From NCBI GenBank assembly GCA_016935665.1, contig JAFGQN010000119.1, positions 1 to 64,000 on the forward strand: DNA of 64,000 bases, given 5' to 3'. Shown one piece after another: positions 26,762 through 40,490 of this stretch. The number at the start of each line of letters is the position of its first letter. Position 1 is the first letter of the stretch. The position numbers were made by a program, and so were the translations under genes. This DNA is from Deltaproteobacteria bacterium. Lineage in GTDB: Bacteria > Myxococcota_A > Polyangia > JAAYKL01. Below the pieces are notes generated by a model, which ran no database searches, was not told the origin of the DNA, and worked only from the letters and a program-made list of their open reading frames with translations.

Positions 26762-28306
26762 ATGATGAATATGTCTATGGAAGCCGGTCATCGGTCAGCA
26801 GCGGATAATACCGCGTTGCTGGGGATTCTTTTTGACAAGTCCCCGGACAGTATATTTATCTGCTCAAAGGACGGCAAAGTACTTCGCGCCAATGCGGTGG
26901 CGACGGAGTATCTGAATTTCGATACATATAAGCATCAATCTTTGAATGTGCATTCGCCGGAGGAACGATTGGATGGGGAATCAACGTGTCTCGGAATGGT
27001 TCCCGGTTTTTCATTTGAGCATGAGGAGGAGATGGAACGTGTCTTTTCGCGCGGTGACGGCAGACTTTGTCATGTTCATATCAGAACGCAACCGATTCTG
27101 TTTGGCGGACAGGATTGCATCCTCGTGGTGCTTCAGGATATTTCCCGATTGCGCAAGCACGAGGATCGAATACGCCAGGCCAGTAAAATGCAGTCAATTG
27201 GACAATTGGCGGGGGGGATTGCTCACGATTTCAACAACGCGCTGGGGGGAATTGTCGGATATGCCGAACTGGCCATGGAAGATGCCGAAGGAAATCTTAT
27301 TCAAAAAGAAAATCTGGAAAAGCTTCTTTTGGCCGCTGAGCGCGCCAAAAAACTGGTGCGGCAGATTCTGACGTTCAGTCGGCAGAACACCCCACGTAAA
27401 GACGAAGTTCAGCTGGCAGCCCTGCTTGAGGAATCCATAGCATTTTTACGCCACTCCATCCCGTCGACAGTGTCTATCGAAACGGCCATTGCACAGGAAG
27501 CCATTGCTGTTGCGGGGGACCCCGCGCGAATCCAGGAGATGCTGTATAATATTGTGACAAATTCAGTGTATGCCATGGCCGAAGAAGGTTTACTTCGCAT
27601 CTCACTGGAGAAAATATACACGGATACACCTGTTGAAGGAGTGGTGGGGGAGATTGCAGCGGGAGAATATGCCGTCATTCGCGTGGATGATAATGGGTGT
27701 GGCATTGAACCGTCTCTGGTGCACTTGATATTCGAACCATTTTTTTCCACGAAACATCCCGATGAGGGGATTGGAATGGGACTGTCTGTGGTTTTTGGCG
27801 TGGTCCGATCCCACGGCGGAAATATTCGCATTGAATCGAAGCCCGGCGAGGGAACAAGCGTGTGGGTGTATCTCCCCCTTGTACGCGCAAACAGCATCAG
27901 TTCCCCGGCGCCAATGCGCAGCGAAAGTGGTGTTGGGACTTTGCTGGTAGTGGATGACGAGCCGGTACTCGTGGACATTTGTCGGAAATTGCTCACATCA
28001 ATGGGATACAAAGTACTGGCGACAATGGACGTGAATGAAGCGCTGGATATTTTACAGGATGAGAATATTCAAATCGACGCATTGCTGACTGACCAGACCA
28101 TGCCTCAGATGAAAGGGGCGGAGCTGGCATCCCGGGCGATGAAGCTTCGACCCGGGCTTCCTGTGGTGCTGTGTACCGGTTTTCGCCGAAATATTGATGA
28201 AGAAGCCGCGATGAAATTAGGTATCTCCAAATTCATTCACAAACCCGTGCGCAAAAATGAATTGGCGCGTGTGGTGAAAGAAGTAATGAAGGCAAACGGG
28301 AAATAA
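26762..28306 (+). CDS. PAS hybrid histidine kinase with C-terminal receiver
   Basis: 514 residues from the ATG at 26762; no ribosome site is seen, and a frame from 26687 is possible. A PAS domain at the start (LFDKSPDSIFICSKDGKV) is followed by a HisKA H-box (GGIAHDFNNALGG), N box (IVTNSVYAMA), G1 (DDNGCGIEP), F box (FEPFFSTKH), G2 (GIGMGLS) and a receiver with DDE, acceptor Asp in LLTDQTMP and Lys in IHKPV. There is no membrane segment, so it senses a cytoplasmic cue. It precedes the CDC48-like gene by 111 bases and may control or respond to the protein-quality system downstream. Confidence 0.9.
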   Translation: MMNMSMEAGHRSAADNTALLGILFDKSPDSIFICSKDGKVLRANAVATEYLNFDTYKHQSLNVHSPEERLDGESTCLGMVPGFSFEHEEEMERVFSRGDGRLCHVHIRTQPILFGGQDCILVVLQDISRLRKHEDRIRQASKMQSIGQLAGGIAHDFNNALGGIVGYAELAMEDAEGNLIQKENLEKLLLAAERAKKLVRQILTFSRQNTPRKDEVQLAALLEESIAFLRHSIPSTVSIETAIAQEAIAVAGDPARIQEMLYNIVTNSVYAMAEEGLLRISLEKIYTDTPVEGVVGEIAAGEYAVIRVDDNGCGIEPSLVHLIFEPFFSTKHPDEGIGMGLSVVFGVVRSHGGNIRIESKPGEGTSVWVYLPLVRANSISSPAPMRSESGVGTLLVVDDEPVLVDICRKLLTSMGYKVLATMDVNEALDILQDENIQIDALLTDQTMPQMKGAELASRAMKLRPGLPVVLCTGFRRNIDEEAAMKLGISKFIHKPVRKNELARVVKEVMKANGK

Positions 28307-28417
28307 AAGTATTTTTTATGAAACAAATTCCTGTTACGCTTGTCCATGTTTTCAATCAGGTTTTAAGACAGAATCTGAGGGTGTTTTATCCACTGCAATT
28401 TAGCCAGGGAGGCAAGC

Positions 28418-30490
28418 TTGGCCGAACAAAGATTCGAATTTCCCGCCTACGGTCGGGTGGATTTGGACGGAACCCACCGCGTTATCATCGAAATAATAGA
28501 AGAAGCGTTTTCCTACCCCAAACAGGATGAGTTATTTTTACATTTGAAATTCAAAAACAGAGAATGTGGCGTTGTGGTGAAGGGAATTCGCGTAGCGGCA
28601 GAACAGAATCGGTTGTTACTTGACCGGTACAAAATGCAGCACCTGAATATCAGAGACGGTGAATCTGTTGAGGCGTTTTTTTTCAGTCCACAAAGCGCTG
28701 AAGAGTTGTCATACTGTGCATCGGCGGACTTTTCCAAACGGGATCAGGTCCGGCTCATTGGAAAACCGTTTACTGCGGGTGAAAAGTCCGCACTGTTTAC
28801 CTTCAGTGGTGAGGCGCGCCCCTATACGGCCGTCACCGCTGCACCGGAAGGAGTTGTGGTGGTATCACCGCGGACTCGACTGTCCGAGGCGCCGGCGGAT
28901 GACGACAACTTACCAGTGACCTACAGTGATATTGGTGGACTTGATGAAGAAATTCGGTTGGTAAGAGAAAGCATTGAATATCCGTTTAAACATCGCGATG
29001 TATTTGCGCATTTGGGGGTAAAACCACCCCGGGGAATTATTTTGCATGGCCCCCCTGGTACCGGAAAAACGTTGATAGCCAAGGCGCTGGCCCACGAGAT
29101 AGGGGCCAATTACTACACCATTAGCGGCCCGGAAATTTACAGCAAATGGTACGGAAACTCCGAACAGCGATTGCGCAACATATTTAACGAAGCAGTGAAA
29201 AATGCGCCTTCAATAGTGGTAATCGACGAAGTCGATTCGCTTGTGCCCAGACGGGACACCATTCACGGGGATCAGGAGCAGCGAATTGTTGCGACATTTT
29301 TAACTCAGATGGATGGGCTAAAGGCGATGAAGGATGTGGTTGTTGTCGGCACCACGAATCGCATCAATGAAATTGATCCAGCGCTTCGGCGCAGCGGTCG
29401 GTTTGAACAGGAAATTTTTGTCGGCGTTCCAGGACATCAGGGGCGATTGCAGATTCTGGGTATACATACCAAACGCATGCCGCTGGCAAAGGATGTGTCG
29501 CTGGAGAAAGTGGCCGAGATGGCGGGGGGATTTACCGGTGCGGACCTGTGCTCTCTTTGCAGGGAAGCGGCATATGTGGCATTGCGGCGTCACATTCCCG
29601 AGGAGGCATTTCAAACCGGAGAATTGGCGGCGCATCGAGAGTTGGTGGTGCAGCACGACGATTTCGTGCGCGCGTTTACCTCGGTGCGTCCCTCCGCATC
29701 CAGAGAATATGCATTGGATGTTCCGCGGACGCAATGGTGTGACATCGGTGGTTTGGCCAGGATTAAAAAGGTACTGGTGGAGAATCTGCAATATGCGGTT
29801 CGCAATCGGGACGCATTTGAGAAAGTGGGTATTCGGGCTGCAGGTGGAATTTTGCTTTATGGTCCTCCCGGAACTGGAAAAACAATGCTTGCCAGAGCAG
29901 TGGCTTGTGAGTGCGACGTGAATTTTATCGGAGTTCGCGCATCAGACATCCGCGATAAGTGGATTGGCGAATCCGAAGATAAAATACGCAATATATTTCA
30001 AAAAGCGCGTTTGCTTGCCCCTTGCGTGATTTTCTTTGATGAAATTGATTCCATTCTCATGTCGCGCGGACGAGATGTGTCTGGCGTGGGGGATGCCATT
30101 GTAAATCAGATTCTGAGCGAGATGGATGGGTTGGAGGATTTTGGGGACATCTTTATCATGGGGGCCACAAATCGCATCGGCGCCATTGATCCGGCGGTCT
30201 TGCGTCCGGGGCGATTTGACTATCTTCTGGAGGTGCCACTCCCGGACCTTTTGGGGCGAAAGGAAATATTCGAGGTTCATCTAAGGGAAAAACCGATTGA
30301 AGATGTCGACCTTGATTTTCTGGCCCTGCACACCGACGGGTTTTCCGGCGCAGCTATTGCTGAAGTATGCCGGGAGGCGGCATGGGAAGCGCTGAGGGAA
30401 GCAAACTACTGCGCCGAAACGGTGACTGTTTCCATGACCCATTTGAAAAATGGAATTGCCCATCTCAATCCTGTACGAGGTGATGTGTGA
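28418..30490 (+). CDS. CDC48/p97 (VCP)-like tandem AAA+ ATPase
   Basis: It starts at a TTG with AGGGAGG six bases upstream. Residues 1-165 form an N-terminal substrate or cofactor domain unlike the canonical one. Two AAA+ modules follow: D1 with Walker A GPPGTGKT near residue 210 and Walker B VVIDEVD, D2 with a second GPPGTGKT near 482 and Walker B IFFDEID. Second-region-of-homology ends RRSGRFE and LRPGRFD carry the arginine fingers. Such ATPases thread or segregate proteins as hexamers; they are widespread in archaea and eukaryotes and patchy in bacteria. Its stop overlaps the start of the GrpE-like membrane gene by four bases, so the two are coupled. Confidence 0.92.
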   Translation: MAEQRFEFPAYGRVDLDGTHRVIIEIIEEAFSYPKQDELFLHLKFKNRECGVVVKGIRVAAEQNRLLLDRYKMQHLNIRDGESVEAFFFSPQSAEELSYCASADFSKRDQVRLIGKPFTAGEKSALFTFSGEARPYTAVTAAPEGVVVVSPRTRLSEAPADDDNLPVTYSDIGGLDEEIRLVRESIEYPFKHRDVFAHLGVKPPRGIILHGPPGTGKTLIAKALAHEIGANYYTISGPEIYSKWYGNSEQRLRNIFNEAVKNAPSIVVIDEVDSLVPRRDTIHGDQEQRIVATFLTQMDGLKAMKDVVVVGTTNRINEIDPALRRSGRFEQEIFVGVPGHQGRLQILGIHTKRMPLAKDVSLEKVAEMAGGFTGADLCSLCREAAYVALRRHIPEEAFQTGELAAHRELVVQHDDFVRAFTSVRPSASREYALDVPRTQWCDIGGLARIKKVLVENLQYAVRNRDAFEKVGIRAAGGILLYGPPGTGKTMLARAVACECDVNFIGVRASDIRDKWIGESEDKIRNIFQKARLLAPCVIFFDEIDSILMSRGRDVSGVGDAIVNQILSEMDGLEDFGDIFIMGATNRIGAIDPAVLRPGRFDYLLEVPLPDLLGRKEIFEVHLREKPIEDVDLDFLALHTDGFSGAAIAEVCREAAWEALREANYCAETVTVSMTHLKNGIAHLNPVRGDV

Positions 30491-32046
30491 AAATTGTCGT
30501 TACTCTACTTTGTTTGTTCTGCATCTGCTTCGGTTCGGGAGGGGGGGCCGCGAAGGCGACGGACGCGGAGAACGATGGCGGTGAGACGTCTGTCGCTAAA
30601 AAGGGGCAACGCTCATCCTCTGCTCCAAATAAATCATCGGAGAAAAAAGAACCATCGCATCTGGAAGCGGGTATTCGGATGTTGCTGGTTTTTCCGGAGC
30701 CTCCCGCAAAGATGCCATTCTCTGAGGCGGAGCTGAATCTGTTTCGCAGCAGCCTTGGAAAGAGTGATCAACTGGGAATTGTTGTGACGAACAGAAAACT
30801 GCAATTACTGTCGATGACTCCGAAGGACCAGATGACGGTATCCAGCGCCGGTATTTTATCTGAATTAAAATTGGCGACAGTGGCGGACAAGGAAAAGAAT
30901 GCCGCTGCGAATGTTAAAAAGAAGCCACTGGATTTGGATGAAACGATACGCAGCGCTGTTGCACAGATGAGCGATTTGCAGGGGTTGCTCAAAGCGGTGG
31001 TGCTTGTTCCCGACAGAGACATTGACCTTTCCCGTGATATAAAAGAAGACACTCCGCTTCAGCCCGAAAACGGAACCGATTCCGGTTTTGATGACAATGA
31101 AAGTACTGAACTCTCCACGTTAAGTTCGTTGTTGGCATTGAACAATGTCATTTTGTACACTGTTTTTCCCGAGACAGTTCATAGTCCTCTGCTGGAAAAG
31201 CTGACTACTCAAAGCGGAGGAAAAAATCTGTTTCTGTCAAATCGCGTTTCTTTGAATGATGCATTATATACGGCATATGATTCCATATTGCTGCGCACCA
31301 TTCAGTTGGCACCCCAAACGGCATTGTATGACAGTGATTCAATCTGCACCCCCGCACTGGATGACACGGCGAAGATCGGAGCCACAGATGAACAACCACC
31401 AGCAGTCGCCGCCAGCAGTGACCTTGTGGTGGGAATGTTGTTTATTGGTCTGGTGCTTAGCGCAGCATTGCTGGTTCTATTGATTTTGATTTGGCGGCAA
31501 AGAGGAACGACCGCATCCCCTGCGGGAACGCCGGAAAGAAAGAATGAAACGTCCGAAGAAAAGGGGGCACCGTCTTTTTCGAAATTGACAATTGGCATTA
31601 ACCGGGTTCGCAACAGCTTTTCGGATATGGAATCCCGCCTGCATGCGCTATCGGTGGATTTGGATGAGTTCGGAAGCGACAACTGGGAAATGCAAAAGAA
31701 AATAGTGTCGGCGTATGCGGAAATTTCAAAAGAGCTGTTCCTTTTATATGACCATGTTTCCCTGGATGACGAATCGGAGCGTAGCGAGGCATCACAGCGA
31801 ATGATGCGGAAGATTGCGCAGGCGCTGGAGAATAACGGCATTGAGAAAATTGTCCCCTCTGCAGGTGAGCGGTTTCACAGCAAGTATCACAGCCACGCAG
31901 GCGAACGCCAAAGTGATCAGAAGGCGGGTACTATTCTGGAAGTGGTGCGCGATGGATATCAGCGGCAGGGATTTGTCAGTGATGAGCCGTTTGTATTGCG
32001 GCAGGCGGAAGTGATTGTTAGCACTGGAACAGACGCTGACAAATAA
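30487..32046 (+). CDS. Membrane protein with vWA-like region and GrpE-like C-terminus
   Basis: It starts at a GTG inside the ATPase stop. A signal or anchor helix (VVTLLCLFCICFGSG) precedes about 290 residues that look like a degenerate vWA fold, seen in GIRMLLVFPEPP, KAVVLVPDRDI, NNVILYTVFPE and LLEKLTTQSGGKN; the metal-binding DxSxS is absent. A membrane helix (LVVGMLFIGLVLSAALLVLLI) leads into the cytosol. There a coiled helix and the final 150 residues resemble GrpE: helices with AYAEISKELFLLYDHV, and strands GIEKIVPSAGERFHSKYH, KAGTILEVVRDGYQ and FVLRQAEVIVSTG. GrpE is the nucleotide exchange factor of DnaK, and an Hsp70 gene follows. A membrane-tied GrpE is very unusual. Confidence 0.7.
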   Translation: MKIVVTLLCLFCICFGSGGGAAKATDAENDGGETSVAKKGQRSSSAPNKSSEKKEPSHLEAGIRMLLVFPEPPAKMPFSEAELNLFRSSLGKSDQLGIVVTNRKLQLLSMTPKDQMTVSSAGILSELKLATVADKEKNAAANVKKKPLDLDETIRSAVAQMSDLQGLLKAVVLVPDRDIDLSRDIKEDTPLQPENGTDSGFDDNESTELSTLSSLLALNNVILYTVFPETVHSPLLEKLTTQSGGKNLFLSNRVSLNDALYTAYDSILLRTIQLAPQTALYDSDSICTPALDDTAKIGATDEQPPAVAASSDLVVGMLFIGLVLSAALLVLLILIWRQRGTTASPAGTPERKNETSEEKGAPSFSKLTIGINRVRNSFSDMESRLHALSVDLDEFGSDNWEMQKKIVSAYAEISKELFLLYDHVSLDDESERSEASQRMMRKIAQALENNGIEKIVPSAGERFHSKYHSHAGERQSDQKAGTILEVVRDGYQRQGFVSDEPFVLRQAEVIVSTGTDADK

Positions 32047-32139
32047 CCGGATGCCAGTTGGCAACGTTGCTATGTAACGTTATGCCGAAGAGACAGATGA
32101 CAGCAATTGAATAAATCATTCAATTTATGGAGTGATAAA

Positions 32140-34119
32140 ATGAGCAAAGCAATCGGAATAGATTTGGGAACCTATAACTCAGCAGCAGCGGTACCTGTGG
32201 GAAACGGCAAAGTGGCCATGGTGGAGAGTCGCTATGGTCGCAGTCTGTATGGGAAAAATTTTGCTTCATTTGTACTGTTCGATCATTTTGGTCAAAAACA
32301 GGTAACCGGAAAACGGGCACAGGCAGAAATGCGACTGAATCCCCGTCTTGTCGTCTGGGGCGTCAAACGACTGGTTGGATTGTCGTATCAGAATGCAAAG
32401 GCCAGCGGTGAGTTGGCGCGTTTTGCGTATGAAACCGAGGAAGGTCCTGGGGGCAGCATACTTATCAAAGTGGGACAGGAGCGGTATACGCCATCGCATA
32501 TTCTCGAGTACATACTGAGGGACATCAAGCAGGATGCCGAAGATCCTTCCGTGAATCCGCTGGTGGGACAAACCATCGACAAAGCCATTATCAGTATTCC
32601 CGCGTATTTTAAAGCCATTCGCACCAATCCAATAATTGAGGCCGCGCGAAACGCGGGATTCGAAGAGGTGGATACCATTGCCGAACCGACCGCTGCGGCC
32701 ATTGACTACTGCATGAAAATCGAGAGGGAAGCGAACCTGCTGGCGTTCGACATCGGCGCCGGGACGCTGGATGTGACGGTAATGATGGTGGTCAACGAGG
32801 ATGGTCATTTGATTCCAGGGGAACTATGTACATCTGGTCACGAGGCATTAGGGGGATTGGATATGGATGATGCACTCATGCGTCATATTGTCTCTAAATA
32901 TGATTTGCACGGTGTCCTGCAGGATGCCACTCATAAATCCATTCTGGCCGAGGAGATTGAACGGGCCAAAATTCGGTTGTCTCAAAAAAACAGCGCCACC
33001 ATCGATTTGCCCGGGGATCAAACGGTGACCATGACGCAGGGGGAATTGGAGGAAGTGCTTTCACCATTGCTGGACAAATGTCGAAAGCCCATTGGTATTG
33101 CGCTGCGTCAGGCGGGGTTGCGTGCAGCGGATCTGGACAAGGTTCTTTTCATTGGAGGCCCTTCCAATATGCCATGTATCCGGAAAGTGGTGGCTCAGGA
33201 GTTGGCCGCATTGGATGCCAGAGGCGATGTAATCGCTGATATCGATGACTATAATCTGAATGGTCTGCCGGTTGACCCAATGGAATGTGTGGCGCGAGGG
33301 GCGTCACTGAAAGCGGGGAGCGTTATCGAGCCAGTTGGAAAAGTGATTTCCGAAGGATATGGCACCGTTTTTGGCCCCGTTGAAGATGCACCCGACTATT
33401 ATGAGCCCATCATCCGTGAAAACTCCCATTATCCCATCTCGGGCAGCACCGTTTCAACGCATCAGAATCCCGATTCGCTGGAAGTCCCCATTTCGCTGGT
33501 TGCCAAAAGACCCGACGCTGAGAAATCCACTGCGGAACGAACCGTATTTAAATACGAATACCTGGGAAATTATTCGCTGGGTATTACGCCCCAGCGGGGA
33601 TTGCCGGCCATTGAAATTCGCTTGCGTGTAACGGACGATAAGCGGGTTGTTGCCACCCTGATTCACACGCAGACGCGGCAACAGGTAAAGTATGAAAGTC
33701 TGGATATGCTGAGTGGTTTTGAAGTGGTGCTTCAGGAACATACTCCGCCCAAAATGCTGGCACAGCAGGATATGGATTTGCTCAATGCAACGGTGATTGG
33801 AAAAAAGAGCGGATGGACCAAAGAGCATTTGGAAAAACATATGCACGTGGCCAGGGAAGCGCTGGCGCTGTGTGGAGATTGTCAGGACGACAAAGTTGTT
33901 TCGGCGATGGAAAAAGTGGAAGAGGCCATTTCGCGTGCCGTGGACCGCAAAATGGACAGTCCCAATGAGGACTGTCCAGCGATTTCCAACCGGACCAAGG
34001 AATTGCTCGACACATTGCTGCAGCCCGGAGTGAAACAAATATCGGTGGAGGAGTTTCGTCGCTATCTTGAACAGCTGATACATATCGCGCAGATGGTTGC
34101 CTATGATCAGGCGGACTGA
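32140..34119 (+). CDS. Divergent Hsp70 (DnaK-like) chaperone
   Basis: It starts at ATG 32140 with GGAG seven bases upstream; a frame from 32107 adds a non-homologous lead. Hsp70 ATPase motifs are clear: IGIDLGTYNSAAAV (phosphate 1), IISIPAYFK, IAEPTAAAIDY, FDIGAGTLDVTV (phosphate 2) and a FIGGPSNMP adenosine motif. The second half keeps a substrate-domain-like stretch (YSLGITPQRGLPAIEIRL) but differs strongly from DnaK, and lacks the EEVD-like end. 659 residues. Partners are probably the GrpE-like protein upstream and the J-like protein downstream. Confidence 0.9.
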   Translation: MSKAIGIDLGTYNSAAAVPVGNGKVAMVESRYGRSLYGKNFASFVLFDHFGQKQVTGKRAQAEMRLNPRLVVWGVKRLVGLSYQNAKASGELARFAYETEEGPGGSILIKVGQERYTPSHILEYILRDIKQDAEDPSVNPLVGQTIDKAIISIPAYFKAIRTNPIIEAARNAGFEEVDTIAEPTAAAIDYCMKIEREANLLAFDIGAGTLDVTVMMVVNEDGHLIPGELCTSGHEALGGLDMDDALMRHIVSKYDLHGVLQDATHKSILAEEIERAKIRLSQKNSATIDLPGDQTVTMTQGELEEVLSPLLDKCRKPIGIALRQAGLRAADLDKVLFIGGPSNMPCIRKVVAQELAALDARGDVIADIDDYNLNGLPVDPMECVARGASLKAGSVIEPVGKVISEGYGTVFGPVEDAPDYYEPIIRENSHYPISGSTVSTHQNPDSLEVPISLVAKRPDAEKSTAERTVFKYEYLGNYSLGITPQRGLPAIEIRLRVTDDKRVVATLIHTQTRQQVKYESLDMLSGFEVVLQEHTPPKMLAQQDMDLLNATVIGKKSGWTKEHLEKHMHVAREALALCGDCQDDKVVSAMEKVEEAISRAVDRKMDSPNEDCPAISNRTKELLDTLLQPGVKQISVEEFRRYLEQLIHIAQMVAYDQAD

Positions 34120-34792
34120 AGCAGAGCTGGAAAAACTGGTTTCCAAGGGCTGTTATGAAGAGGCTCTTGGGGTCTCCTTTGATGCGACACCATCTGAAGT
34201 GGCGCGCGCACACATACGACAGCTTCATTATTTTTCCAATTCAGAACGGGCCCGGGAAGCACTCAATCAGGCCCGTACAGCATTGCAGGGCGAAAATGCG
34301 GAACGAAAAAGCCAGCGACTGCTGAATGTGGATCAGTTGGAAGCTGCGCAGGTGGTCATGGAGCGAGCGCTTGGAACAAATGCCTCTGCTTATAATTACT
34401 ACATGCAGGGATATATTTTATATCGGATGGGTCGATACGTTGAGTCTGAAAAATACATGCAAAAGGCCTTTGATAGGAGTGGGTCCGCATTTCACGCTGT
34501 CTGGCTGGGATGTTCGATGGAACGGCAAGGGAAACTGAAAGAAGCTCTCGAACAATACATCTTTGCCATAGAAAAGCGGGGCAACGAAACGGAACATCGA
34601 ATGGCCGGAAATCTCTATTATCATATTGGGGACTACGTGCGCGCCTGCACGCATCTCGAAAAAGCGGTGTCCATGGGATGTCAGGATGAAGATGTGGCGG
34701 AGAAAATACTTGTAATTTATCAAAAGCAAAAATACGCCAGATTGATAACCCGAATTAAAAATGTCTTCAGACAGGGGGGGACTGCCGAGTAG
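34103..34792 (+). CDS. J-like and TPR protein, probable cochaperone
   Basis: The start overlaps the Hsp70 gene (TTG 34097 or ATG 34103, no ribosome site seen). Residues about 15-65 have the length and helical pattern of a J-domain (YEEALGVSFDATPSEVARAH, then SNSERAREALNQARTAL). The HPD loop needed to stimulate Hsp70 is absent; the corresponding stretch reads HIRQLHYF. TPR-like repeats follow (YILYRMGRYVESEKYMQKAF, GNLYYHIGDYVRACTHLEKA). A substrate-delivery cochaperone for the divergent Hsp70 is the simple guess. The protein is cytosolic. Confidence 0.65.
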   Translation: MIRRTEAELEKLVSKGCYEEALGVSFDATPSEVARAHIRQLHYFSNSERAREALNQARTALQGENAERKSQRLLNVDQLEAAQVVMERALGTNASAYNYYMQGYILYRMGRYVESEKYMQKAFDRSGSAFHAVWLGCSMERQGKLKEALEQYIFAIEKRGNETEHRMAGNLYYHIGDYVRACTHLEKAVSMGCQDEDVAEKILVIYQKQKYARLITRIKNVFRQGGTAE

Positions 34793-34928
34793 AATCAACG
34801 GGACAGTAAAATCAAAGGGACGGTGTTTCTTTTTTTCTTTTGATATTTCAATACAATCCGGGACAATTTTCCGATTGTTCTTTTCCAATTGTTTGCACCA
34901 TGCCGGTATTTGGTTTAAAATTCTATTT

Positions 34929-35936
34929 ATGTCTAGGTATGCAAGAATATATTTTCCAGGAGGCCTGTATCATCTAATCTCAAAGTGCGTTGATGATAAA
35001 CCATTGTTGCGATTGAAAAAGCAACGTGACTATTATCTGCATTTACTGGCGGAATCGGTTCAGAAAACCGATGCGAAGATACTGGCGTATTGTATTTTGC
35101 CCAAACAGGTGCACCTGGTGGTGCGCGCCGGATGGGAGCCTCTCGAACGTTTGATGAAGCCCATAAACACAGGATACGCCTGCTGGCTCAATAACCAGGA
35201 CGCCTCACGTGACGGAGCGGTGTTTGGCGGCCGGTACAAAGCCGTGTTGTTGGAAGAAAACTACATTTTCGATTTAGTGAGATATGTCCACAATGCACCG
35301 GTGCGCCTGAACAAGGTACAACGCGCGGCCGACAGCAACTGGTCCAGCCATCAGGCCTATATCGGCGAGGTGGATACACCTGAGTGGCTGGATACGTCGA
35401 CGCTGCTGCAACAGGTGAACCCAAAAATGGGATGGGCCAAACGGCAATTCGATAAATTTGTTGATGAAGCTTCATCTGAAGGACGTCGCCGAGACCTGGA
35501 AGGTTCTCGAAGCGATGCAATGAGTCGCGCATATCGCAGCGTTCTTGCCGAACATTTGAAAATCGATGGTCCCATTATTGGCAGCGAAGAGTTCGTTGAA
35601 ATGGTGTACCAGGAGGTTTACACGCGAGGATCGAAATCGAGTCGTAAAAAACCAAAGAAGTCGGTGCTGAACAAACTGATTGAAACCGTACGCGACGAAC
35701 TTGAAATAGATCCGAAAGAGTTCCAAAAATATCCCAAACGCAAGCAGAGCGCTTTTGCCCGAAAGCTAATTGTTTATATCTGGGTCGTCGAGTACGGTGG
35801 AAAACAGGCCGATGTTGCAGCCAAATTGAAAGCATCCACTGGCGCGGTCACCCGTTGGTATGGCAAAGCTGTACAGAATATTGAAAAGTACGAACCCCTC
35901 ATATTAAAAATCCAACAGCGAATGAAACAGTCCTGA
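34929..35936 (+). CDS. RAYT-like (Y1 transposase-related) protein with HTH C-terminus
   Basis: The N-terminal 180 residues match the REP-associated tyrosine transposase/Y1 fold: RYARIYFPGGLYHLISKCVD, LPKQVHLVV, the VFGGRYKAVLL segment and YIFDLVRYVHNAPVRL. The metal-binding HUH motif normally reads NHVHLLL, but the first His is Gln here (QVH). The Tyr of the RYVH helix remains, so catalysis is doubtful. The C-terminus (LIVYIWVVEYGGKQADVAAKL) resembles the DnaA-like HTH that such proteins often carry. No clear REP array lies next to it. It could be domesticated. Confidence 0.8.
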   Translation: MSRYARIYFPGGLYHLISKCVDDKPLLRLKKQRDYYLHLLAESVQKTDAKILAYCILPKQVHLVVRAGWEPLERLMKPINTGYACWLNNQDASRDGAVFGGRYKAVLLEENYIFDLVRYVHNAPVRLNKVQRAADSNWSSHQAYIGEVDTPEWLDTSTLLQQVNPKMGWAKRQFDKFVDEASSEGRRRDLEGSRSDAMSRAYRSVLAEHLKIDGPIIGSEEFVEMVYQEVYTRGSKSSRKKPKKSVLNKLIETVRDELEIDPKEFQKYPKRKQSAFARKLIVYIWVVEYGGKQADVAAKLKASTGAVTRWYGKAVQNIEKYEPLILKIQQRMKQS

Positions 35937-36595: not shown

Positions 36596-38014
36596 ATGAC
36601 GACAACAAAAACGCTTACTGAATGCCTGGGGATATTTATCGTGAGTTTTTTACTCGCGCAGGGGTGCACAAAGAAGGACAGTGAAACCGGTTGGGACGGC
36701 AGCAGTGATGTCGATTCGGGTTCCGATGGTGATGGGGACAGTGATACGGATAGCGATTCCGATGGGGACAGTGATACGGATGGGGACAGCGACACGGATG
36801 GGGACAGCGATGCGGACGGAGACAGCGATTCAGACAACGACGCGTGCCCATTTTCGTGTACCATTCCCACTGCGTGTCAGGGTGGGAAAATAGAGAGTGC
36901 GTACACCTGTCAGCCGTCAAACTGGGTGTGTTGTGGCCCGGCGGGCGATGGGGATACGGACACAGACGCGGATGGAGATACCGATTCAGATACGGACACC
37001 GACGGTGACTCGGACGCAGATTCCGATAGTGACACCGATACCGGTCCGGTAACCGACGCGGTGCGCCCCTGTGATATTTACGAATCCGCCCAAACGCCTT
37101 GCGTTGCCGCCCACAGTACCATTCGCGCGCTGTACGGAAAGTACGACGGATTTTTGTACGAGGTTCGGCGTTCAGACAATCAGACAAAGGACATCGGCGT
37201 GCTAAGTCCGGGAGGCTTTGCGGACGCCCTGGCGCAGGACGAGTTCTGCAAGGGCTCCACCTGTGTCTTCACCAAAATATATGATCAGTCCGGCCACGGA
37301 AATTTTCTCGAATACCAGGGCGATGGCAGCTCCATTGGCGGACGGGTTAAACCGGCGGTGGCTACGAATGAACGCCTGACCGTGGGCGGTCATGATGTTT
37401 ACTCCCTGTACATCAAGCCCTCCTGCAGTTACTGGCGCGATGGCTCCAACTCTGGCATGCCCAAAGGATCCGAGCCGCAAGGGGTTTACATGGTTACCAG
37501 CGGCACTCACGTGAACGGCGGCTGCTGTTTCGATTACGGAAACAGTTCCACCAGTCGGATGATGGAGGGTGGCGCCACCATGGACGCCATCAACTTCAGC
37601 GTTCAATGCTGGTTTGGCGGATGTGAGGGCGGGGGTCCCTGGGTGCAGGCGGATTTGGAGGGCGGACTGTATCCCGGCGGCAGCCAGAGCTGGAATCCCA
37701 ATCAGCAGTCATTTAAGATGAAGTACGTTACTGCGATGGAGAAGAACAATGGCACCTCTGAGATGGCCCTGCGAGGCGGGGATGCCCAGTTGGGAGCTCT
37801 CGCTACCATGTACCAGGGAGCGCTGCCCAGAGGATACAGTCCCATGCGAAAACAGGGCGGCATCATTCTGGGAAGCGGTGGTGACTGCTGCGCCATCAAT
37901 ACCAACCTGAGCGAAGGAACTTTCTACGAAGGCGCCATCGTCGCCGGTTACCCCTCCAATGAAACCGATGACCTCATTCAGGAAAACATCATCGAGGCTG
38001 GTTACGGCAAATGA
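36596..38014 (+). CDS. GH54 alpha-L-arabinofuranosidase lipoprotein with Asp-rich linker
   Basis: Lipobox FLLAQGC at about residue 24 is followed by a linker built of DSDTDGD-like repeats (about 36-80 and 119-148) around a Cys-rich knot (CPFSCTIPTACQ). The catalytic domain matches arabinofuranosidase B: RPCDIYESAQTPCVAAHST, IYDQSGHGN, GGCCFDYGN. The catalytic Glu (ADLEGGLY) and Asp (GSGGDCC) of the family are kept. It ends with the catalytic domain; the usual CBM42 is missing. It likely trims arabinose side chains from plant polymers at the cell surface. Confidence 0.85.
   Translation: MTTTKTLTECLGIFIVSFLLAQGCTKKDSETGWDGSSDVDSGSDGDGDSDTDSDSDGDSDTDGDSDTDGDSDADGDSDSDNDACPFSCTIPTACQGGKIESAYTCQPSNWVCCGPAGDGDTDTDADGDTDSDTDTDGDSDADSDSDTDTGPVTDAVRPCDIYESAQTPCVAAHSTIRALYGKYDGFLYEVRRSDNQTKDIGVLSPGGFADALAQDEFCKGSTCVFTKIYDQSGHGNFLEYQGDGSSIGGRVKPAVATNERLTVGGHDVYSLYIKPSCSYWRDGSNSGMPKGSEPQGVYMVTSGTHVNGGCCFDYGNSSTSRMMEGGATMDAINFSVQCWFGGCEGGGPWVQADLEGGLYPGGSQSWNPNQQSFKMKYVTAMEKNNGTSEMALRGGDAQLGALATMYQGALPRGYSPMRKQGGIILGSGGDCCAINTNLSEGTFYEGAIVAGYPSNETDDLIQENIIEAGYGK
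36705..36840 (+). repeat. Asp/Ser/Thr-coding tandem repeats
   Basis: Imperfect copies of GATGGGGACAGCGATACGGA encode DGDSDT units inside the GH54 lipoprotein linker. A second array lies at about 36940-37050, and related arrays in the GH30 and beta-helix lipoprotein genes. The repeats keep frame and codon wobble, suggesting slippage under selection for an acidic flexible stalk. Confidence 0.75.
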
Positions 38015-38627: not shown

Positions 38628-40382
38628 TCAGCCTCCGTTGATGGGAACAACAAACGTGGTAATCGAGTAGGCGGGGAGGGTGGTATGAAAACGCTTCCCC
38701 GAAATGGAGATGTCGGTTTGCTTTGCCAGATCTTCGGTTTTTGAGGTTCTGTAGACGCTGGCCAACGTTCCGATCCGTGTAAATGAGGAGAGGTCAAACG
38801 TGTATTCTTCCTCACGCGACGGGGCGGCGTTCAGGGCGATAATGATTAGAGATTTGCCGCTGCTGTTCACGGCGGCAACCATTGCGTTGTTCCCAATATC
38901 AATGAACACCGCGCCCGGAGTGATAAAGTTGCTGAAGTTGCGATGCATGTAAAAGCGCCTGGTAAATGTAAACGTTTCCCTGGTCTGGTTCACATGAATG
39001 GAGCCCCAGACGCCACCGTCCACCACCTGCCAGTCCAGCCAGGCCACTGGTTGCATTTCGCGCAAATCCAGGATGATGCGTTCCGCCATGTAGATGGCCA
39101 CGTCGTTGTCGTCTCAGCCAGGCCAGGAAAGGGGGCCGGACTCGCTTTGCCACAGTTTTTTATTTAGCGATTTAGCCAATTCCCGCAAGTTTGCCCGTTT
39201 GCTCCCGCTGTAAGAGTGAGTATTGATTTGAGAAAGATAAGCGAGCGCCGAGTTCGAATACATGCCCACACTTTCAATAGTGGTGTCAATGCTGTTTTCA
39301 TCGGGGGCGCTTAATGTAGTATCCAACAGCCCCTTTTCGTCCAGACTGGCGCCCACCACCTCCAGAAGTTTCGATTGGGTTTCCGACCAGAAGGTGCAGC
39401 CTTCCTGAGTATTGCCTTCGGTCCACCAGCTGGAGTTGGGTTCGTTGAGGGGATTGAGCGTGTTAAACACAATATTGTAATTGTCGCGATAGTGTTTCAC
39501 CACTTCGGTCAGGTAATCGGCAAACGCAGCGTAATTTTGCTCGGGAAGATTATTGCCGGCGCTGGATGCCCCGGACGCACATCCGCTGCGGGTCATCCAG
39601 TATGGCGGAGAATTGGAGAACGCTTCCAGGGTAATGTCACGCCCCATTTCATCGCTTCGTTCGATAATGCGCTGCAGCACCTGTCTTTGGTACCGGTCTG
39701 CATCAAAATCCCAGACGCCCTCGGAGGGCTGATATCCGGGCATATCCCGGAATTAAGTCATGTGGTTGTGCGCCGGGTTTTCACCGCCGCCGATATTGAA
39801 TCGAAATACCGTGTATCCAAGGCCGGTATCTGGATTGACCACACTTTCAACAAGGTCGTTCATATTCTCTTTGGACCATCGGCCAATCTGGTTGCCCCAC
39901 CAGCAGATACTGGTTCCCCAACCTTCAAAGGTCTGATATTCCGTGGCCGGTTCAAGGGGGACCAGGTTGCCATACATTTCCGTATCCACTTCGGTATCGT
40001 CATCGAACTCCGAATCAGAAGGGGCATCCGTCACTGTATCGCTGCCGGTATCCGGCCTGGTTGCGCCGTCGCAGCATTGCAACTCCGCCACGCAGTCGCC
40101 GTCCATTGGGGTGCCGCCCCAGGAACGACAATGGGACAGACAATCGAATGCACATTGACTATCGTTGGAATCAGTATTTGAATCCGCATCTCCATCCGCA
40201 TCCGTGTCGGTGTCGCTATCCCCGTCACTGTCGGAATCCGCGTCAGTATCACCATCTGTGTCTGTATCCGCGTCGGTGTCTGCATCGGATGAATAGCCTT
40301 CCTCGCTGCTGCTGTTTTTTCCGCACGCAACCACAAGACATATCAGCGTTACTATCCACCACAATTTGGTTTTGATTTGCAT
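38628..40382 (-). pseudogene. GH30 glycosidase lipoprotein gene with two in-frame stops
   Basis: One reading frame covers a lipoprotein start (lipobox LVVACG), an Asp-rich linker (DTDGDTDADSDSDGDSDT), a Cys-knot like that of the GH54 protein and a GH30 barrel (YQTFEGWGTSICWWG, NIGGGENPAHNHMT). The frame is broken by TAA at 39753-39755 and TGA at 39111-39113; on both sides the protein continues without a shift (FRDMPGYQPSEG; DDNDVAIYMAERI). Acid/base Glu (NPLNEPN) and nucleophile Glu (QSESGPLS) are kept, and the beta domain ends VVPINGG. It is probably recently inactivated, or the stops are sequence errors. Likely substrate: hemicellulose, with the neighbouring GH54. Confidence 0.75.
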
Positions 40383-40490
40383 ACAGGACACCTCTTTCAA
40401 ATGGCACCACTCATTCAATGTCGTCTCTTCCTGAATGCATTTCAACAAAAAAACTGCGCAGTGAAATGACAGGATTTTTAAAAATCTCAT

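Follow-up and report, generated by a model that had tools for sequence, protein, structure and literature searches.

What might a CDC48-like ATPase be doing in one gene block with altered forms of each partner of the DnaK cycle? The locus that raises this question lies in a 64,000-nucleotide stretch of a Myxococcota genome (hereafter the window), where the initial annotation described five packed genes on one strand, encoding a PAS kinase-receiver, a tandem-AAA CDC48-like ATPase, a vWA/GrpE membrane protein, a divergent Hsp70 and a J-like/TPR protein. All five are present as described (Table 1), the conserved unit, however, consists of the last four, and the histidine kinase (HK) is a neighbour at genus level.

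Table 1. Positions of the module genes, their domains and the adjoining kinase in the window
Feature	Position	Strand	Length	Basis or remark
PAS histidine kinase-receiver hybrid	26762..28306	+		Pfam PAS-HisKA-HATPase-receiver; outside the conserved unit
CDC48-like tandem AAA+ ATPase	28418..30490	+	690 aa	Pfam AAA 1.4e-87
CDC48 D1 ring	~28916-29602	+		Walker A/B, aromatic pore loop
CDC48 D2 ring	~29720-30406	+		Walker A/B, aromatic pore loop
vWA-TM-GrpE membrane protein	30487..32046	+		Pfam GrpE 2.1e-10
Predicted extracytoplasmic vWA domain	~30670-31311	+		MIDAS degenerate in the window
TM helix of vWA-GrpE	31435-31491	+		Hydropathy scan
Predicted cytoplasmic part: long helix with head and wing of GrpE	~31573-32025	+		Pfam GrpE
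Divergent Hsp70	32140..34119	+	659 aa	Pfam HSP70 5e-62
J-domain HPD receptor position (DnaK R167)	32671..32673	+		Codon 178 = Asp
Interdomain linker position	33340..33360	+		KVISEGY, replacing DVLLLDV
J-like/TPR protein	34103..34792	+	229 aa	Pfam TPR 2e-12
J-like helices I-III without HPD	34103-34300	+		AF2, hhalign
TPRs of J-like/TPR protein	~34322-34687	+		Pfam TPR

Extent and inheritance of the four-gene module

The four genes (28418-34792) share one strand and mostly overlap or lie no more than 4 bp apart, with the conserved start of the Hsp70 at the ATG at 32140, which is preceded by GGAG, and not at the TTG at 32107, and that of the J-like/TPR protein at the ATG at 34103. Across eight genomes the intergenic gaps run from -23 to +4 bp, with two exceptions, both 5′ of the Hsp70 gene (93 bp in the window, 32 bp in G004), and with uncertain gene starts at the CDC48-GrpE gap of G050. 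A scan for promoters and terminators was uninformative, with 16 promoter-like sites against 10.5 expected and terminators at chance level, and Rfam and tRNA scans of the window gave no matches.

A search of 59 relatives with the CDC48-like protein returned full-length close matches in seven further genomes, and in all seven it is directly followed by the vWA-GrpE, Hsp70 and J-TPR homologues, collinear and equally oriented. Instead of being scattered among relatives, the four genes keep their order and strand in eight Myxococcota genomes (four genera, two families), which are fragmented assemblies and include at least two MAGs. The Hsp70 subfamily is found in 8 of 318 class genomes (E ≤ 1e-150) and, in a 379-genome sample of the phylum, only in the three module genomes sampled (E ≤ 1e-85). 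The CDC48 N domain occurs in the same eight of 308 class genomes, with no other match at E ≤ 0.001, and the J-like domain at E < 1e-28 in these eight of 308 only, with one weak extra match (7.5e-5) in G125. Among 13 genomes examined, membrane-form GrpE-domain matches (32-45 bits) are confined to the eight module genomes, and housekeeping GrpEs score >100 bits (G001, whose assembly is fragmented, yielded none); housekeeping DnaK, GrpE and DnaJ are encoded by separate genes in the module genomes. A scan of genome contigs with one Hsp70 gave two MAG contigs of the same genus and one unrelated match, and a plasmid search gave, among the matches listed, only generic DnaK-level matches (<28% identity). 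Other CDC48s of the class (G006, G014, G021) are without the three module neighbours in the stretches read. Kinase-like neighbours were seen at the G006 and G014 CDC48 genes, and at loci L029 and L031 class CDC48 genes stand beside several histidine-kinase-like genes, a separate association.

The four gene trees share their deep topology, g1 / g2 / (G004, G050), as expected for co-inheritance, with ultrafast bootstrap values for (G004, G050) of 99, 84, 99 and 54. Where dS was measurable (several pairs were saturated) dN/dS of the module genes lay at 0.02-0.37, indicating purifying selection, Hsp70 and CDC48 giving 0.02-0.13, GrpE and J-TPR 0.16-0.37. These comparisons support the view that the four genes form one co-inherited unit, more than chance would give.

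The kinase adjoins the module only in the window's genus (G000, G001, G002) and is absent beside it in the five other genomes. As the adjacency is limited to one genus, the conserved unit comprises four genes and not five, and the five-gene operon with the kinase as a member was rejected. That the module regulates the neighbouring PAS histidine kinase, governing its folding or turnover, would fit the position of the kinase ~40-155 bp upstream throughout the three genomes of this genus, but is largely refuted by the five in which the kinase is not beside the module, and is very improbable.

The flanks differ by genus (BamB-like; V-type ATPase/methyltransferase; patatin/DUF4388; CLC channel/HK), and among the flanking open-reading frames read or scanned, part of which were scanned, no conserved effector, secretion or surface-structure gene recurs beside the module. 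An effector-loading role, as first suggested, thus finds no counterpart in the gene neighbourhood. No protease or client gene is encoded nearby. In genus g2, the only one with a BamB-like neighbour, the module follows, at a distance of ~110 bp, a gene for a BamB-like beta-propeller protein and one for a TM-TPR protein (L026:10424-11623, L025:1149-2348). An IS200/Y1-type transposase-like (RAYT-like) gene lies directly downstream of the module in the window (34926-35936) and holds this position across the three genomes of its genus. Further on are two genes whose secreted, lipoprotein-like products carry long D/S/T/G repeats (DSDTDSDGD; 36596-38014 and 39114-40490); such genes recur near the module in several genomes and are probably just common there.

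The neighbourhood also bears on whether the module is a chaperone devoted to assembling a single surface structure or secretion apparatus (a pilus, or polysaccharide export) with CDC48 as its remodelling motor, a role comparable to that of SglK/StkA in Myxococcus or of the cyanobacterial type IV pili DnaK system. Specialised Hsp70s serve myxobacterial surface functions (PMC4319316; SglK, PMC8265645) and a DnaK system acts in cyanobacterial type IV pili (PMC9239167), and both the predicted membrane location and a narrow distribution, as of a lineage-specific client, would fit. Yet no surface-structure genes recur beside the module, and the absence of the Hsp70 subfamily from the other phylum genomes sampled makes orthology with SglK/StkA unlikely, so that we consider this reading rather unlikely overall.

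Altered partners of the DnaK cycle

The module Hsp70s are 60-92% identical to one another, and the window member scores 210.1 bits against the NCBIfam prok_dnaK equivalog, below the cut-off of 822.55. Compared with 20 housekeeping Hsp70s, and numbered as in E. coli DnaK, all eight keep the ATPase residues D8, G10, T11, K70, E171, D194, T199 and D201. All eight are changed at R151T, R167D, N170A, D148A, D326Q and Q378K and further at D388K, L391A/S, L392E, D393G and K414E (the alignment around R167 is free of gaps; residues in the weakly aligned substrate-binding half are assigned less certainly), residues kept in 19-20 of the 20 housekeeping proteins bar the conservative exchanges D388E and K414R. 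R167, L392 and D393 are found in none of the eight and in all 20 housekeeping Hsp70s; the R167 position is Asp throughout the module set. The linker reads KVI[SA]EGY in 8/8 and VLLLDV in 0/8, and the initial assignment as a divergent Hsp70 is supported. By alignment, the J-contact and interdomain-clamp residues of the module Hsp70 have been replaced, with its ATPase residues intact.

Divergent Hsp70s such as Hsp110 show a similar loss of linker and J-contact with ATP-binding residues retained. The module Hsp70 might, like these, mainly serve the housekeeping DnaK as its holdase or exchange factor, CDC48 then being a separate matter, and the pattern of lost and retained residues would suit such a protein, but the gene block carries its own GrpE in all eight genomes, something for which an exchange factor has no evident use, and we hold this alternative to be improbable. 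As an observation apart, G000 encodes a 987-aa Hsp70 (C44, L146:3712-6675) with ~470 low-complexity Pro/Asp-rich residues between its ATPase and substrate-binding halves, overlapped by the gene of a small HPD-bearing J protein (L146:6617-7186), and several relatives have similar two-part Hsp70 matches with an adjoining J-domain match.

In the contact between DnaK and the HPD motif, D35 bonds R167 and Q378, and H33 touches the L391 backbone (PMC8215388). The other side of this contact is altered in the module as well, the HPD motif being absent from all eight J-like domains in the alignment. The AF2 model of the J-like/TPR protein (pLDDT 93.8) has a short helix, helices matching J-domain I, II and III, and then TPRs; Foldseek results for this model were dominated by the TPRs and uninformative on the J-like part. 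A Pfam DnaJ scan matched none of the eight members, and hhalign of the domain against true J domains taken from these genomes scored 27.2, with a maximum of 17.9 over 273 decoys (150 column shuffles, maximum 17.5, and 123 windows from other alignments, maximum 17.9). Its invariant residues include Y18, R35, H37, L41 and N55. With a profile relation to J domains but no HPD in 8/8, 'J-like', as initially annotated, is a fair label on present sequence grounds, and 'J-domain protein' is not. The homologue in genus g2 also carries a C-terminal, tail-anchor-like TM. Both sides of the J-Hsp70 contact have been lost together in the module.

The G125 match noted above is the C-terminus of a DUF4388 protein (C1279, L137:1396-3054), which ends in a J-like domain without HPD and, scanned alone, matches Pfam DnaJ at 6e-4. 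HPD-less J domains hence exist elsewhere in the class, and a domain lacking HPD yet matching DnaJ provides a link between the J-like and J-domain families.

The third partner, GrpE, is part of the membrane protein, in which Pfam GrpE matches all eight members above its cut-off of 25.8 bits; as the best score against the NCBIfam GrpE equivalog is 27.9 bits, below the cut-off of 194, it is a GrpE-domain protein and not an orthologous GrpE. The vWA assignment holds through Pfam matches in individual members (VWA, 2.5e-12, in one; VWA_2 in two) and through Foldseek of the model, which is low-confidence (pLDDT 59.7) and returned vWA structures and the GrpE of 1dkg/4ani/9bls; the vWA-GrpE profile, run against PDB sequences, found no more than a weak vWA match. 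The MIDAS motif DxSxS is intact in the G050 member only (DTSES) and degenerate in the other seven. A single strong TM is predicted around residue 317, and most members have a signal-like hydrophobic N-terminus; in this topology, predicted from hydropathy alone, placing the GrpE half in the cytoplasm with the Hsp70 would put the vWA half outside. The vWA domains share a mean pairwise identity of 31% and the GrpE heads one of 52%, as would be expected if an external domain evolved fast on a constrained internal one. Relative to housekeeping GrpEs, the wing hairpin has 6-23 extra residues, and the module Hsp70 has a 5-residue insert beside the loop around DnaK G32, which reportedly contacts GrpE in 1dkg. 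The wing and the Hsp70 loop that it would face are both lengthened. The earlier statement that each partner of the DnaK cycle is present but altered is thereby borne out (a membrane-fused GrpE, an HPD-less J-like protein, an R167D Hsp70), with profile similarity found for both the GrpE and the J-like parts.

A fast-evolving vWA half would also be at home in a biological-conflict (immunity) device, with chaperones that set its threshold, a scheme put forward for MoxR-vWA and GAP1-N2 GTPase systems, which unite vWA, HSP70, GrpE, DnaJ or TPR parts (PMC7159879), and the patchy, all-or-none presence of the module within its family points the same way. However, no DO-GTPase, GAP1, FNIII, MoxR or effector was seen among the flanking genes read or scanned, the Hsp70 is extremely conserved, the gene trees fit vertical inheritance, and in PADLOC the CDC48 drew only generic partial AAA matches, with GrpE, Hsp70 and J-TPR left unmatched; an immunity device is accordingly a poor prospect. 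IetAS and other PADLOC defence systems were set aside as giving only partial AAA matches.

The CDC48-like motor and a proposed machine

The ATPase has two AAA domains with lids, Walker motifs and arginine fingers in both rings (eight-row alignment), and W in the pore loops of both (KWYG; KW or RW), which are of the threading type. Its best NCBIfam match, TIGR01243 CDC48 (662.9 bits, 6e-199), falls below the cut-off of 802.65, and with the two AAA matches agrees with the CDC48-like assignment first given. The N domain has a weak match to designed double-psi barrels (DPBB; E 0.012). A MoxR-type AAA was rejected, PF00004 AAA and CDC48 being best and bpMoxR below its cut-off. An HbYX C-terminus is absent from the eight-row alignment, and no 20S proteasome was recognised in the module genomes with the PF00227 profile, which gives one clear match per module genome, of the score and kind that it gives in E. 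coli, and which also matches in B. subtilis (in both of these bacteria, HslV).

We infer, with a probability of about 0.45, that the four genes encode one membrane-anchored chaperone-unfoldase machine that passes clients to CDC48, its likeliest task being the disassembly or quality control of envelope proteins. The fixed order in eight genomes and the TM are consistent with the initial idea of a single machine, probably at the membrane, for which a membrane quality-control function is plausible. Because R167 substitutions in DnaK somewhat raise basal ATPase and leave DnaJ stimulation ineffective (PMC7289447, PMC8215388), the module Hsp70 may work without classical J activation, and the HPD-less J-like/TPR subunit would then be a recruiting adaptor and not an ATPase trigger. 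The membrane GrpE would reset the Hsp70 at the membrane, possibly gated by a ligand of the vWA, and the released client, most likely an envelope protein, would go to CDC48 to be unfolded or pulled from a complex or from the membrane. More tentatively, and with some doubt, the module may be a ubiquitin-free bacterial analogue of membrane-linked Hsp70-Cdc48 extraction, combining a J-independent Hsp70, a membrane exchange factor that would drive its cycle and be gated by the vWA from the extracytoplasmic side, and direct hand-over of clients to CDC48.

The coupling of the J-domain HPD to the Hsp70 Arg is treated as near-universal in Hsp70 biology, and the module lacks both sides of it while its Hsp70 ATPase is under strong purifying selection. 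It offers a natural setting in which to ask how an Hsp70 manages without classical J activation, whether gating of its cycle across a membrane is possible, and how a bacterial CDC48 works without ubiquitin or, apparently, a 20S proteasome.

Relation to known systems

As initially supposed, no described system of this composition was found in the open-licence PMC literature, a scope within which novelty means 'not found' and not proven; term searches of two papers on myxobacterial Hsp70s (PMC8265645, PMC11019930) turned up no combination with GrpE/AAA or CDC48/vWA. Cpa of actinobacteria (PMC6017811) and archaeal VAT/Cdc48 share with the module a tandem AAA+ Cdc48 with an N domain, whereas the module adds chaperone partners and has neither an HbYX C-terminus nor a recognised 20S proteasome; Cpa is linked to psd-pssA co-transcription and proteasome interaction (PMC6017811). 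Eukaryotic ERAD/Cdc48 membrane extraction likewise brings Hsp70 and Cdc48 to membrane clients, by analogy only, with no ubiquitin, Ufd1/Npl4 or retrotranslocon seen for the module. MoxR-vWA / Bat (aerotolerance) systems share an AAA+ ATPase, a membrane vWA and a TPR protein, but the module has a classic AAA/CDC48 ATPase in place of MoxR, and to our knowledge GrpE and Hsp70 are not components of those systems. With the DnaK-DnaJ-GrpE machine the module has in common the three partner types, in its own block, and a homologous ATPase and GrpE wing, and differs in the missing HPD, the replaced R167 and VLLLDV, the fusion of GrpE to a membrane vWA and the coupling to CDC48. The closest relatives found in composition are the GAP1-N2 GTPase systems (Kaur et al. 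2020, PMC7159879), which likewise bring a dedicated HSP70, a GrpE and a J- or TPR-bearing protein into one cluster and whose related members also have membrane and vWA parts. Those systems are built on a DO-GTPase and GAP1 with FNIII repeats, and CDC48 goes unmentioned in their description (PMC7159879), whereas the motor of the module is a CDC48-like ATPase.
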